A program made the position numbers and the translations under genes. From the NCBI GenBank assembly GCA_017412715.1, contig JAFPWU010000023.1:1-49042 (forward strand): a stretch of 49,042 nt of DNA, written 5' to 3'. Source of the DNA: Clostridia bacterium (GTDB lineage Bacteria > Bacillota > Clostridia > Christensenellales > Aristaeellaceae). Shown one piece after another: positions 236-31,351 of this stretch; position 1 is the stretch's first letter; every line of letters starts with the position of its first letter. The notes under the pieces were generated by a model, which saw nothing but the letters and a program-made list of their open reading frames with translations, had not been told where the DNA came from and did no database searches.

Positions 236-263
236 TTGACAGAATCCCCGAATTGCTTATAAT
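236..263 (+). promoter_or_regulatory. Consensus promoter of small RNA copy 1
   Basis: Perfect TTGACA (236-241), a 16-base spacer and perfect TATAAT (258-263). The same promoter with the same spacing stands before small RNA copy 2 on the other strand (19240-19267), so it is part of the repeated element. Confidence 0.8.
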
Positions 264-269
264 AAAAAA

Positions 270-376
270 CGAAGAGCAGCGCACCAGCGGCTGTTCCTCA
301 GCTACGGAATTAGATCGTCAGTGGTTATTAGGCCACGAACAGTCGTCACTCCTCGCACGAGTGGCGATTGTTTTTT
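270..376 (+). ncRNA. Antisense-type small RNA, copy 1
   Basis: A transcript of about 107 bases is predicted between a consensus promoter and a strong terminator. The terminator stem is AACAGTCGTCACTC paired, with G-U pairs, to GAGTGGCGATTGTT and followed by a T run ending at 376. The first ~35 bases (from ACGAAGAGCAGCG) and the terminator closely match copy 2 at 19126-19233, while the middle differs. On the opposite strand the terminator overlaps the end of a frame (stop at 346-348) ending KNNRHSCEE, matching the tail KNNRHSVQE of the small ORF at copy 2. Here that frame has no ATG, GTG or TTG after its upstream stop, so the sense gene looks decayed. The RNA is inferred, not observed; the antitoxin role rests on comparison with copy 2. 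Confidence 0.6.
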
Positions 377-463
377 ACTTCACGGGCCTTTTTCCGCCTG
401 GTTTCACGAATGACAATATCGTTGAAGATTTCAAGGTCAGGCTTTCTTCTCCTTGGCCCACGC

Positions 464-16197: not shown

Positions 16198-16908
<711 letters not shown>

Positions 16909-16945: not shown

Positions 16946-17040
16946 TTGCGCATTTTTCGCGCCCTTCATTTATACTCGATGTTTTTTCCTTTTATAACAC
17001 TTTATGTTCGATAAAAATTATAAAATTTATCCTTCCATAC

Positions 17041-17069
17041 TCGACAAATATCGTTTTTGGGGCTATAAT
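17041..17069 (+). promoter_or_regulatory. Promoter of the DUF4143-type ATPase gene
   Basis: TCGACA (17041-17046), 17-base spacer, TATAAT (17064-17069), inside an AT-rich stretch quite unlike the GC-rich surroundings. The ATG follows 22 bases later with GGAGG seven bases before it. Confidence 0.7.
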
Positions 17070-17090
17070 CCTTTCCGTGGAGGCGATCTC

Positions 17091-18362
17091 ATGAAGCATG
17101 AAGTACTCAAACAGGTTATTCTGGATCAGCATGAAGTAATCCGCAGGGCGGAGATCATCCCCAGAGCAATTACGCTGCATCCGGAAATAAATCAGGTTGT
17201 AACAGGATTACGCCGTGCTGGCAAATCCACTCTGCTCTATGGTCTGGCCCGGAAGCTTGTTGCCAGCGGTGTTGACTGGAACCGCATCATCTTCATTAAT
17301 TTTGAAGATGAACGACTCGCTGAAATGACTGCAGCGGATCTGAACGATATTCTGGCTGTTCAAAGCGAAATGAGCGATCAGCGGGGTTACTTCTTCCTCG
17401 ACGAGATTCAGATCATCCCCGAGTGGGAAAAATTTGCCAGGAGAATGGCAGACCGAAAGGAATCCGTACAGATTACAGGGAGCAATGCCAGGATGCTCTC
17501 CCGTGAAATAGGTTCAACCCTGGGCGGTCGATATCTGGAAAAAAACATCTGGCCCTATTCATTTGATGAATATCTGAATGCCATTGGAACCCCTCACGGC
17601 GAAAATGAGCTGATTGAGACCGTCGCCCACGGGAGAGTGCTGGCAGGTTGTAATTCCTATCTTAAAGAAGGCGGCCTCCCTGAAACGCTTCGATACCCAT
17701 CCAAACGCGACTATATCAGCAGTGTTTATCAGAAGATCCTCCTCGGAGATATCGTTACAAGAAACAGTCTTCGCAACAGCCATGCTGTCGCTCTGCTCAT
17801 AAAGAAGATCGCTGAAACTGTCATGCGCGAGGTATCCTATGCCAATTTGTACGGCAATCTGAAGGCGGCTGGCCTCAGGATCAGTAAAGATACGATCATA
17901 GATTATGTTGACTTTATTACAGATACCTACCTGGTTTTCAAGATATACAACCACTTTTCCACGTTTTCTGAACGTGAGACCACACCAAAATATTACTTTG
18001 CGGACAACGGTTTATTGAGCCTTTTCCTGACCGACAAAAAAAGCGCCCTGCTCGAAAATGCCGCCGCAATTTATCTGAAACAGCATTACGGAGAAGAAGT
18101 CTGCTATATCAAATCCTCTGTGTCCGGCCTGGATATTGATTTCTATATTCCTTCAGAACAGACTGCGATTCAGGTCTGCCTTGATTTAAACGATCAGTCT
18201 TCTGATCGCGAAATCAGCAATTTGCTGAAAGCATCTTCCCTGATGCATGACCTGGATCGGCTGATCATCGTCACATCAGAAGGAACGCCGTCCAAACACC
18301 CGGACTATCCGGAGATCGATCTGATTCCAATCGATATATTCCTGCTGAAAGGGTTCGCATAA
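17091..18362 (+). CDS. AAA-type ATPase with C-terminal DUF4143 domain
   Basis: A 423-residue protein of a large, poorly understood ATPase group often found as single mobile genes. An N-terminal P-loop domain has Walker A GLRRAGKS (39-46), Walker B YFFLDEIQ and the sensor-like ITGSNARML. The C-terminal half (about 210-423) has the DUF4143 pattern: [12 protein letters not shown], then [13 protein letters not shown] and the nuclease-like [10 protein letters not shown]. Base composition is visibly more AT-rich than its neighbours. It has its own promoter and sits between two copies of the purC 3' end, which points to horizontal arrival. Function is unknown; proposals for the family include DNA or nucleoprotein remodelling. 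Confidence 0.88.
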
Positions 18363-18398: not shown

Positions 18399-18520
18399 AT
18401 ACCTGCCGCTTCCGGGATCACGAAACCCACGAGAAGCTGGACAAGGACCGGTTCCGCCGGGATCTGGGCGGCGTGGAGGAAGCCTATCAGGAAATGCGCA
18501 GAAGGCTAGGTTTCTGATCG
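18399..18520 (+). repeat. Direct repeat 2: duplicated 3' end of purC (fragment)
   Basis: The copy encodes the last 39 residues of PurC in frame up to the stop, with a W-to-R change ([12 protein letters not shown] versus [12 protein letters not shown]). It has no start and is not expected to be translated. A weak hairpin CGCC-GAAAAA-GGCG follows, not the terminator of the first copy. Confidence 0.9.
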
Positions 18521-18636: not shown

Positions 18637-18676
18637 AGCGGGAATTATCTGTCAATTCTTCGAGATAATTCCCGCT
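18637..18676. repeat. Perfect 14-base inverted repeat, with a third half-copy
   Basis: AGCGGGAATTATCT (18637-18650) and its exact complement AGATAATTCCCGCT (18663-18676) are separated by 12 bases. A third GGGAATTATCT occurs at 18701-18711 in the same orientation as the first. It could be a protein-binding site or the end of a lost mobile element. Confidence 0.7.
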
Positions 18677-18889
18677 TACTCGCATTTTTTAGCATCTGTA
18701 GGGAATTATCTCAAAGTTTTTCAAATAATCAAGCCAGTCCACAGTTTGAGTCGCGGACGGAAAACATTCTTCCGACCCGGGAGGGCTATCGCGGGACCGT
18801 TCGCCTGCGGATCAACCCCCCGGAGAAAGTCGCCGCCCGGCGGGCCGAGCATGATCTCACCGCGAAAAAGCAGTAACAGAGCCCAATGG

Positions 18890-18917
18890 AAAACTCCGGC
18901 GCGCGCGCCGGAGTTTT
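18890..18917. terminator. Strong bidirectional hairpin terminator
   Basis: The 28-base palindrome of AAAACTCCGGCGCG and its complement is followed by T residues in both directions. It ends an open stretch (about 18727-18873, reading ...INPPEKVAARRAEHDLTAKKQ) that resembles a decayed C-terminus but was not identified. It insulates the toxin-antitoxin-like element that follows. Confidence 0.75.
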
Positions 18918-18937
18918 CTTTGAACCTCAGTTGGCAA

Positions 18938-18966
18938 TTGACAGCAGTCATACGGGCTGATAAAAG
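18938..18966 (+). promoter_or_regulatory. Possible promoter of the small basic ORF
   Basis: A perfect TTGACA (18938-18943) is followed after 17 bases by TAAAAG (18961-18966), a four-of-six match to the -10 box. If used, the leader before the small ORF at 19049 is about 75 bases, as is common for type I toxin messages. Confidence 0.4.
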
Positions 18967-19048
18967 TCTTTCTGCCCCGCAAGGGGTACGAAGATGCATT
19001 GTGGCTGGCGGCTGTTCCTACTCCCTGAACCGAAAGGGGGTGCAGGAC

Positions 19049-19156
19049 GTGCGGATCACCTTTCACGTCTGGAAGTACACGGGAACGATTGTTATCCGCG
19101 AAACCAAGCGTAAGGCCCAAAACGTAAAAAACAACCGCCACTCGGTGCAGGAGTGA
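19049..19156 (+). CDS. Small basic protein, candidate type I toxin
   Basis: A 35-residue protein starting at GTG: MRITFHVWKYTGTIVIRET, then KRKAQNVKNNRHSVQE. The first half is mostly beta-branched and aromatic and the second half strongly basic, which fits a membrane- or nucleic-acid-active peptide. The ribosome binding site AAAGGGGG (19033-19040) lies 8 bases before the GTG. The last ten codons and stop are antisense to a predicted RNA made from the other strand (19126-19233), the usual layout of TxpA/RatA-like pairs. A tail with the same KNNRHS ending occurs in the decayed copy at 346-465. The family was not recognised with certainty; the toxin role is inferred from architecture. Confidence 0.55.
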   Translation: MRITFHVWKYTGTIVIRETKRKAQNVKNNRHSVQE

Positions 19157-19233
19157 CGATTGTTTCGCGGCTTTACGCCAGCAAGCATTCTTAAACCCTA
19201 ACTGAGGAACAGCCGTTGGTTCGCTGCTCTTCG
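19126..19233 (-). ncRNA. Antisense-type small RNA, copy 2 (candidate antitoxin)
   Basis: About 108 bases are predicted from the promoter at 19240-19267 to a terminator whose stem is AACAATCGTCACTC with GAGTGGCGGTTGTT, followed by TTTTTT (19126-19131). Its 3' third is fully complementary to the last 31 bases of the small ORF at 19049-19156 and the rest to that message's 3' untranslated region. Its 5' part (ACGAAGAGCAGCG, then CGGCTGTTCCTCAG) is conserved with copy 1 at 270-376. It would act by base pairing with the toxin message. Confidence 0.65.
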
Positions 19234-19239
19234 TTTTAT

Positions 19240-19267
19240 ATTATAAGCATTTCTGGAATTATGTCAA
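19240..19267 (-). promoter_or_regulatory. Consensus promoter of small RNA copy 2
   Basis: On the minus strand TTGACA (19262-19267), 16 bases, TATAAT (19240-19245). The -35 box overlaps the last codons of the fructokinase gene (stop 19259-19261). Both hexamers are perfect, as expected of an antitoxin RNA made in excess. Confidence 0.8.
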
Positions 19268-29994: not shown

Positions 29995-30087
29995 AGCATT
30001 CAAGCATGGTTTTTTACCCCTGAATTTTAATGGCGAAGGTTCACTCCACTTTTCTGTCCCTTCGCTCATGTAAAAAAGGAGGAAAAC

Positions 30088-30190
30088 AGTCCGCGGGCTC
30101 GCGGTGCGGCAGTGTGGAGACCTGCCGTAATGCGGTGCCATCTTCGGGATGGCCGCGAGGCATGAGGCGATAAGCCGGCAGCCAGAGCCA
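30088..30190 (+). ncRNA. Structured leader of the msmK-type gene (possible malK-type motif RNA)
   Basis: Between GH32 and the ATPase gene lies a GC-rich block that folds into consecutive stems: CCGCG/CGCGG (30091-30104), CGGCAG/CTGCCG (30107-30127) and GCGG/CCGC enclosing CCATC-TTCG-GATGG with a UUCG loop (30132-30156). It ends shortly before the ATG at 30197 and encodes no ORF. Structured malK RNA motifs have been described upstream of ATPase genes of this family; whether this is one of those classes cannot be decided by eye. A role in tuning ATPase synthesis separately from the importer genes is inferred. Confidence 0.5.
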
Positions 30191-30196
30191 TGAGAT

Positions 30197-31351
30197 ATGT
30201 CAAAGGTTACACTGAAGGGCATTAAGAAGATCTATGACAACAGCGTCACCGCGGTGCATGACGTTAATCTGGAAATCGAGGACAAGGAATTCATCGTGCT
30301 GGTCGGGCCTTCCGGCTGCGGAAAATCCACCACCCTGCGGATGGTCGCCGGCCTGGAGGAGATTTCCGAAGGCGAGCTGACCATCGACGGCAAGGTCTGC
30401 AACGACGTGGCCCCCAAGGATCGGGACATCGCCATGGTTTTCCAGAGCTATGCCCTGTACCCCCATATGACCGTGTATCAGAACATGGCCTTCGCCCTGA
30501 AGCTGAAGAAGACCCCCAAGGACGAGATCGACAAGAAGGTCCGGGAAGTGGCCGAGATTCTGGACATCACCCAGTACCTGGAGCGGAAGCCCAAGGCTCT
30601 GTCCGGCGGTCAGCGTCAGCGCGTCGCCATCGGCCGTGCCATGGTGCGTGACCCCAAGGTCTTCCTGATGGACGAGCCCCTGTCCAACCTGGACGCCAAG
30701 CTGCGGAACCAGATGCGCGCCGAGATCATCAAGCTGCGGAAGCGCATCAATACCACCTTCATGTACGTGACCCACGATCAGACCGAGGCCATGACCCTGG
30801 GCGACCGGATCGTGATCATGAAGGACGGCTATGTAAACCAGATCGGCACCCCGGTGGAAGTATTCAACAAGCCCGTAAACCTGTTTGTCGCCGGCTTCAT
30901 CGGCATGCCGGTCATGAACTTCTTTGACGGCTGCAAGCTGCTGCTGGAGAATGATACCTACTACGCGGAAATCCGCGGTGTCCGCTTCCAGCTGGATCCC
31001 TTCCAGCAGAAAGCCCTGAAGCAGAATGGCCAGAAGCCCTGCGACATCGTGGCGGGCATCCGGCCCCAGCACATCTCCGTGGGCAAGGGTGAGCTGAGCG
31101 CGCTGATCGAGGTTTCCGAAATGCTGGGTACCGAGGTGAACCTGCATACCCGCAGCAATGAGGATGAAGTCGTCATGGTAATCCCCACTGTGGATCTGGA
31201 TACGGACGTGAGCATGGGCAAGACCATCAGCTTCACCACCCAGCCCCGGCTGATTCAGCTCTTCGACAAGGCGACCGGCAACAACCTGATCTGGTTCGAT
31301 GAGAAGTCATCGGCTGCCAACGCGCCGGTGTGCAAAAATTACAACTTCTGA
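30197..31351 (+). CDS. msmK: Multi-sugar ABC importer ATPase, MsmK/UgpC type
   Basis: A 384-residue cytoplasmic ATPase. Walker A GPSGCGKST (37-45), Q-loop VFQSYALYPHM, signature LSGGQRQR, Walker B VFLMDEP and the switch His in YVTHDQTEAM are all intact. The C-terminal MalK-like regulatory domain (about 240-384) contains ADKIxxG-like GIRPQHISVG. It is the only ATPase of this class in the window, while three importers (4606-6618, 24762-26627, 37458-39235) lack one, so it probably serves all three, as MsmK does in streptococci. No good ribosome site is seen directly before the ATG, consistent with control through the structured leader. Confidence 0.92.
   Translation: MSKVTLKGIKKIYDNSVTAVHDVNLEIEDKEFIVLVGPSGCGKSTTLRMVAGLEEISEGELTIDGKVCNDVAPKDRDIAMVFQSYALYPHMTVYQNMAFALKLKKTPKDEIDKKVREVAEILDITQYLERKPKALSGGQRQRVAIGRAMVRDPKVFLMDEPLSNLDAKLRNQMRAEIIKLRKRINTTFMYVTHDQTEAMTLGDRIVIMKDGYVNQIGTPVEVFNKPVNLFVAGFIGMPVMNFFDGCKLLLENDTYYAEIRGVRFQLDPFQQKALKQNGQKPCDIVAGIRPQHISVGKGELSALIEVSEMLGTEVNLHTRSNEDEVVMVIPTVDLDTDVSMGKTISFTTQPRLIQLFDKATGNNLIWFDEKSSAANAPVCKNYNF

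Follow-up and report, generated by a model that had tools for sequence, protein, structure and literature searches.

A probable type I-like toxin–antitoxin cassette in Clostridia that pairs a short cationic peptide with a facing antisense RNA

Introduction

In a 49,042-nucleotide contig of a Clostridia bacterium of the family Aristaeellaceae (JAFPWU010000023.1, assembly GCA_017412715.1), hereafter the window, a short reading frame next to a fructokinase gene faces a strong promoter on the opposite strand. A first-pass annotation had proposed a type I toxin–antitoxin pair at this place, which raises the question of whether the arrangement recurs elsewhere and whether a toxin with its antisense RNA is the best account of it. 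We consider it probable that the element is a self-contained type I-like toxin–antitoxin cassette. On our best reading it represents a new family, type I in manner, with a cationic, strand-prone peptide that has no transmembrane helix.

The cassette and its second copy in the window

Positions 18938-19267 of the window were found to be one copy of a conserved cassette, bounded by one -35 box and the facing -35 box, with the following features:

18938..18966, plus strand: toxin-side promoter, TTGACA-17-TAAAAG (10/12)
18974..18987, plus strand: predicted 5' terminal hairpin of the peptide mRNA, with a GCAA loop (folding)
18988..19021, plus strand: leader motif similar to the 5' region of the antisense RNA; predicted pairing partner of the 3' end of the same mRNA
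19020..19041, plus strand: predicted hairpin sequestering the Shine-Dalgarno sequence (folding)
19049-19156, plus strand: candidate toxin peptide ORF, 35 codons, GTG start, sequence VRITFHVWKYTGTIVIRETKRKAQNVKNNRHSVQE
19126..19233, minus strand: candidate antitoxin antisense RNA (RNAII), about 108 nt, ends predicted
19128..19166, minus strand: terminator hairpin of the antisense RNA, overlapping the C-terminal codons of the ORF
19204..19239, plus strand: counterpart of the antisense RNA 5' hairpin with a T-rich run behind it; the peptide mRNA is predicted to terminate here and to pair with its leader through this stretch
19267-19240, minus strand: antisense RNA promoter, TTGACA-16-TATAAT (12/12), from a sequence scan

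The 35-residue, GTG-started frame and its strong ribosome site (AAAGGGGG, ending 8 nt upstream of the GTG) were located as the first-pass annotation had described them, as was the perfect promoter facing the frame; its -35 box coincides with the two final codons of fructokinase. The plus-strand promoter had been missed, and its first base is the very position, 18938, at which that annotation had begun the locus. The proposed minus-strand RNA of about 108 bases with a strong terminator is likewise predicted here: its 3' end is a 16-pair hairpin followed by TTTTTT, and its fold was better than 200/200 shuffles (z -3.5). It had been described as complementary to the end of the ORF and the region 3' of it; the overlap of about 31 nt with the ORF stands but the restriction to the ORF end does not, because transcription from the plus-strand promoter is predicted to continue through the entire RNA region up to the hairpin and T-rich run, so that the whole small RNA would be antisense to the peptide mRNA. 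Folding of the window peptide mRNA gave z = -4.3.

Sites of the form TTGACA-16-TATAAT with at most one mismatch occurred twice in the window, both of them perfect, against 0.01 expected in shuffles, and two perfect promoters of the facing type indicate that one element is present twice. Its other copy, at 236-423, shows 77% identity over 236-417 and retains these parts:

236..263, plus strand: perfect antisense RNA promoter
269..381, plus strand: antisense RNA (RNA profile match, 63.1 bits)
349..423, minus strand: ORF remnant, C-terminal part only, N-terminal core absent

Promoters and limits of the conserved unit

We collected 136 distinct copies of the cassette, and in 98 of them both promoters scored at least 10/12. 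Among 85 copies scored for the antisense promoter, 58 reached 12/12, 18 reached 11/12 and five reached 10/12, with four scoring lower, while the best score in 425 letter shuffles was 10/12 (2/425). The toxin promoter, usually about 80 bases upstream of the start codon, scored 12/12 in three, 11/12 in 46 and 10/12 in 16 of 84 copies, with its 425 letter shuffles again reaching 10/12 at best (three shuffles); in a larger set it scored at least 10/12 in 101/135 copies. In that larger set the -10 box was TATAAT in 104/127 antisense promoters but in only 14/101 toxin promoters, which suggests that the antisense side is the stronger. Beyond the -35 boxes, positions in 59 non-redundant copies carried at most 0.24 bits each, apart from a C adjoining the antisense -35 box (1.18 bits); these copies were chosen with promoters of at least 10/12, so that their boxes are conserved by choice. 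The conserved unit is the transcribed part.

Distribution and genomic context

A DNA search of 100 relatives gave matches in six genomes, one of them (G027) at 89% identity and another (G041) in a tandem array. A profile built from three peptides matched 48/308 genomes of the family Aristaeellaceae at E 0.01 or better (17/120 among good genomes), and one made from 55 copies of the facing RNA matched 53/308 (19/120 among good genomes). The two lists share 45 genomes, an agreement that is only partly independent because the peptide served to gather the RNA copies and the RNA extends over the last part of the ORF. The element is a multicopy family, which the first-pass annotation had missed. A species-level genome collection contains 97 places that code for a relative of the peptide; the best 80 of these fall in metagenome-assembled genomes labelled Clostridiales, Christensenellaceae, Oscillospiraceae, Ruminococcaceae and Lachnospiraceae, labels that binning errors can blur, and many of these genomes come from ruminants. 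Wide spread across the class was rejected, as 391 evenly drawn genomes of the class returned only the window's own genome. The cassette was also found on eight viral contigs; deposited phage and plasmid records, searched with one peptide each, gave no match.

The location beside fructokinase, which had been part of the original description, proved incidental. In all seven other genomes of the same genus that hold the cassette or a remnant of it, the fructokinase match (strong in six, weak in G030) lies on a separate contig, and on this ground an operon with fructokinase was rejected. Nor was a conserved partner gene or mobile element found: the 135 neighbouring proteins of 68 loci were diverse, with any Pfam family occurring in at most four and any PHROG family in at most three of them among the 25 commonest listed of 102 Pfam and 112 PHROG families. 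In a prophage of G041, one RNA-only and two full copies are placed between genes for the tail sheath, a virion structural protein and the tail chaperone, while on two viral contigs the cassette lies between the major tail and tape measure genes (L049) and near an integrase (L047). Self-contained cassettes with their own promoters often sit in this way among phage genes. At locus L012 (3646-5340), tandem cassettes with 787-base spacing lie between repeated copies of a virion structural gene, the cassette being duplicated along with the phage gene.

The surroundings of the window copy have repeats of their own. Directly upstream of the cassette is a perfect 30-base palindrome, GAAAACTCCGGCGCGCGCGCCGGAGTTTTC (18889-18918), likely a bidirectional terminator, and to the left of the cassette nested inverted repeats of 14 and 16 bases surround GGGAATTATCT in intergenic sequence at 18637-18716. 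Two stretches matching the 3' end of purC, the SAICAR synthetase gene, form a direct repeat of 122 bases (98%) at 16787-16908 and 18399-18520. Between them lies an AAA_14/DUF4143 ATPase gene (17004-18362), which looks as though it had arrived at the 3' end of purC together with a duplicated end.

The peptide

Forty-one representative peptides of 25-40 residues aligned as M-R-I-T-F-H-I-G-K/R/P-Y/F-T-V-T-I-x-I/V ahead of a variable, basic tail; the core is thus MRITFH and then T alternating with hydrophobic residues. On 68 non-redundant cores pN/pS was 0.27, compared with 0.92 +- 0.25 in column permutations, 0/500 of which were as low, and with 1.47 and 1.78 in frames +1 and +2, in a test whose copies were gathered by protein similarity and are therefore biased towards conserved proteins. 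Variability at codon positions 1, 2 and 3 of the core was 0.28, 0.14 and 0.60. At the level of sequence, then, the peptide core evolves as a protein, and the start codon and ribosome site are kept.

The KNNRHS tail, by contrast, fails as a signature of the peptide. The same DNA, CCGCCACT, encodes the terminator of the RNA on the other strand. Among the 108 copies that have it inside the ORF, 96 read it in the usual frame, and nine and three read it in the other two; the motif is absent from 14 more copies, and two more ORFs stop before reaching it. Being read in all three frames, the tail is set by the opposite RNA, and the signature of the peptide is its N-terminal core. In the window copy this core carries a glycine where 52/53 aligned relatives have V or I. 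With its GTG start and 10/12 toxin promoter as well, the window copy looks weakened and may perhaps be past its prime, and intact copies are present in relatives.

The 55 peptides analysed for composition carry a net charge of +4 to +8. Their maximum 19-residue hydropathy was 0.91, which is no transmembrane-helix signature, hydrophobicity alternated, and the strand propensity exceeded the helix propensity in 55/55; from this composition we infer a two-stranded, amphipathic peptide. Searches of Pfam and NCBIfam with three peptides at E up to 10 returned no family, PHROG gave one weak match (phrog_7298, E 0.083), and neither a match of the window peptide in the PADLOC defence library nor a solved relative among the PDB sequences was found. 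Four peptide strings did not occur in the mostly open-access literature searched, and titles and abstracts on type I modules in the rumen and in Clostridia mentioned no such peptide; it may be present, unnamed, in small-protein catalogues of microbiomes. The earlier impression that the peptide differs from single-helix holin-like toxins and may belong to an undescribed family agrees with the absence of a curated match in these libraries and of a transmembrane-helix signature.

Structure of the two RNAs

In an alignment of 55 antisense RNAs the terminator comprises 12 consensus pairs, and in five of these both partners vary. One U-G pair, present in 54/55 RNAs, would be an A-C mismatch in the plus strand; the hairpin is therefore kept for the minus strand, and its use by the plus strand was rejected. 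An RNAalifold consensus of the 55 sequences revealed nothing beyond the terminator, and in single-sequence folds of 36 antisense RNAs 5' and middle hairpins recurred in many, not all. Membership of a known RNA family was rejected, the only match in the window at Rfam gathering score lying away from the cassettes, and a search of 12 loci at E up to 1 gave no recognised family at cassettes. That one match, a malK-I RNA (RF03069) at 30026-30202 (120 bits, E 3.7e-22), is an observation in its own right.

On the mRNA side, folding predicts a silenced message. The ribosome site is predicted to be paired in 58/58 leaders with a recognised site, of 59 leaders; its hairpin bears a GNRA loop in 46/59, and 44/59 leaders begin with a 5' hairpin of at least four pairs. 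When presumed full mRNAs were folded, with their ends placed by assumption at the T-rich run that follows the plus-strand hairpin (at least five T in eight bases in 87/92 copies, an uncontrolled count), the leader paired with the last 45 bases in 59/59 copies. Leaders folded with their own 3' ends paired over a mean of 27.9 leader bases at -18.7 kcal/mol, as against 13.1 bases and -7.8 kcal/mol with shuffled 3' ends and 13.0 bases and -5.7 kcal/mol with swapped ones, at least 20 bases still being paired in 11/59 and 21/59 copies, respectively. Similarity between the leader and the antisense 5' part is also higher within a cassette than between cassettes (mean score 24.5 versus 16.0; 0/5000 permutations); the own RNA was the best match in 19/47 cassettes, and the RNA of another cassette scored higher in 28/47.

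Loss of the peptide, loss of the RNA and competing readings

At E 1e-8 or better we counted 115 RNA sites, of which 89 had the N-terminal peptide core, six a C-terminal remnant and 20 no peptide match. The automatic count of 26/115 sites without the core fell to 23/115 after sites were read (17 of the 20 without a peptide match and two of the six remnants), one diverged peptide, one frame-shifted core and one site at a contig end being deducted. A recognisable RNA promoter was present at 10/20 inspected sites, which include the site of the diverged peptide and one extra site. Conversely, 6/99 peptide matches had no strong RNA match. Three of these were weak: one is a remnant in G003, and two fall in long open frames and are probably due to chance. 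The other three are real cores with a damaged RNA side. In G199:C9 the ORF and toxin promoter are intact and the RNA promoter is lost (RNA match E 3.8e-6), in G281:C112 the RNA match is E 2.2e-7 with a 12/12 promoter, and in G325:C399 the core is present with no RNA match. The peptide is thus lost more often than the RNA, as would be expected if it were harmful on its own, with these exceptions. At one locus (L239, G325:C376:8700-10400) several RNA-only copies stand in a row, each with a promoter and an altered terminator loop, and the peptide core is missing at both sites read.

These patterns bear on three other readings. We think it rather unlikely that peptide and antisense RNA form a regulatory pair without toxicity, with the RNA setting the dose of a small phage or host peptide (a moron acting on the physiology of the host or of a rival phage, for example, or an immunity RNA). 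The tight double control, with its strong antisense promoter, hidden ribosome site and predicted 5'-3' pairing, matches descriptions of toxic mRNAs, and copies that keep the peptide but have lost the RNA side (3/99) are rarer than the reverse; yet the peptide is unlike known membrane-helix toxins, copies lie between tail genes of a prophage and of one viral contig, a second viral contig has one near an integrase, and the RNA persists at the 23/115 sites where the peptide has been lost, half of 20 read having an intact promoter, so that it may have a use of its own. Taken further, that persistence, which includes the window copy at 236-423, would make RNAII a conserved stand-alone small RNA and the facing ORF a decaying or accessory passenger. 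This is very unlikely given that the N-terminal core is at its expected place in 89/115 RNA sites and that its third codon position is the most variable and its second the least.

A small non-autonomous mobile element of the MITE kind, with inverted TTGACA ends and an ORF that is only a by-product, would account for the multiple copies, the tandem arrays of G041 with their 787-base spacing, the inverted similarity of the ends and the unrelated flanks. It would leave the coding selection on the core and the retention of start codon and ribosome site unexplained, and there is no conserved terminal repeat past the -35 boxes; we regard it as very unlikely. Against the type I-like reading itself we count the missing transmembrane helix, the lack of a fixed neighbour or mobile element and the three copies with damaged RNA, as well as the consensus fold limited to the terminator, the cross-matches of leaders with RNAs and 3' ends of other cassettes, the bias of the coding test and the weakened state of the window copy.

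Comparison with known type I systems and proposed mode of action

As in type I pairs, the predicted RNA lies opposite the candidate toxin mRNA and is complementary to it, the peptide is genuinely encoded and shorter than 60 residues, and the mRNA is predicted by folding to be silenced by structure; the transmembrane helix and the curated-family match expected of a membrane-acting type I toxin are both absent. The convergent layout that had suggested such a pair is present at the sequence level, with a conserved small ORF set against a strongly promoted antisense RNA. Among Firmicutes, txpA/RatA is a convergent overlapping pair, often carried in prophages, with a longer, hydrophobic transmembrane toxin, and neither it nor CD2517.1-RCd8 matches the cassette in sequence; SymE and RalR are both larger than the cassette peptide.

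A close likeness in RNA architecture is set out in PMC6733600 for AapA/IsoA of Helicobacter and Campylobacter, which has several chromosomal copies with a cis-overlapping antisense RNA and an mRNA kept silent through 5'-3' pairing, hairpins hiding the Shine-Dalgarno sequence. All of these traits are seen or predicted in the cassette, the hosts of which are Clostridia instead, and AapA1 has an amphipathic transmembrane helix (PMC8309996), whereas the cassette peptide has neither a helix signature nor a family match. The par/Fst locus of pAD1 and the Fst/Ldr group, as portrayed in PMC7472228, resemble it in having convergent promoters, a peptide some 30 residues long and a hairpin at the 5' end that sequesters the Shine-Dalgarno sequence, and in occurring on mobile elements. 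The par RNAs, however, share a bidirectional terminator and direct repeats, whereas the cassette RNAs have inverted-repeat 5' ends and two separate terminator hairpins, and Fst is a transmembrane helix, which the cassette peptide is not. Pairs of the CD2517.1-RCd8 type in C. difficile are also convergent, overlapping and often located in prophages, but the toxins of three named pairs are hydrophobic, transmembrane and, at 50-53 residues, longer than the cassette peptide (PMC6563280). SymE and RalR are type I toxins that, like the cassette peptide, have no transmembrane helix; they are nucleases (PMC8309996), and the cassette core of about 16 residues would be too short for a catalytic fold.

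For the type I-like cassette that we favour, we propose that a cationic, amphipathic, strand-prone peptide of about 30 residues would be read from an mRNA of about 270 nt. This mRNA would be silent as made, its ribosome site held in a local hairpin and its 5' and 3' ends paired, and translation would need 3' processing or refolding. The strong facing promoter would supply the antisense RNA of about 108 nt, complementary to the mRNA 3' end, and neutralisation would proceed through an RNA duplex and decay by a double-strand RNase that removes the mRNA. If the cassette were lost or its transcription stopped, the structured mRNA would outlive the antisense RNA and the peptide, presumed toxic, would be released, which would give the cassette a role in maintenance. 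Sequence comparison supplies the conserved unit, its two promoters, the selection on the coding core, the antisense terminator and the complementarity, while the ribosome-site hairpin, the 5'-3' pairing and the mRNA ends come from folding predictions, and toxicity, neutralisation, decay and maintenance are inferred. A bolder version, which we put forward tentatively and hold to be somewhat improbable, is that this is the first type I-like family with a short cationic beta-hairpin toxin, carried by a promoter-to-promoter cassette that moves among Clostridia and their phages, in which promoted RNAs without a peptide serve as trans antidotes against incoming copies (anti-addiction).

Implications

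For annotation, the peptide and RNA profiles cover about 100 places per 308 genomes that have no entry in the libraries used. With cassettes that have lost the peptide, the anti-addiction idea could be put to the test for RNA antitoxins. Should the peptide prove toxic, a structural class invisible to searches for transmembrane helices would be added to the known type I toxins, and it would come from rumen and gut Clostridia, in which no described type I module was found in the titles and abstracts searched.
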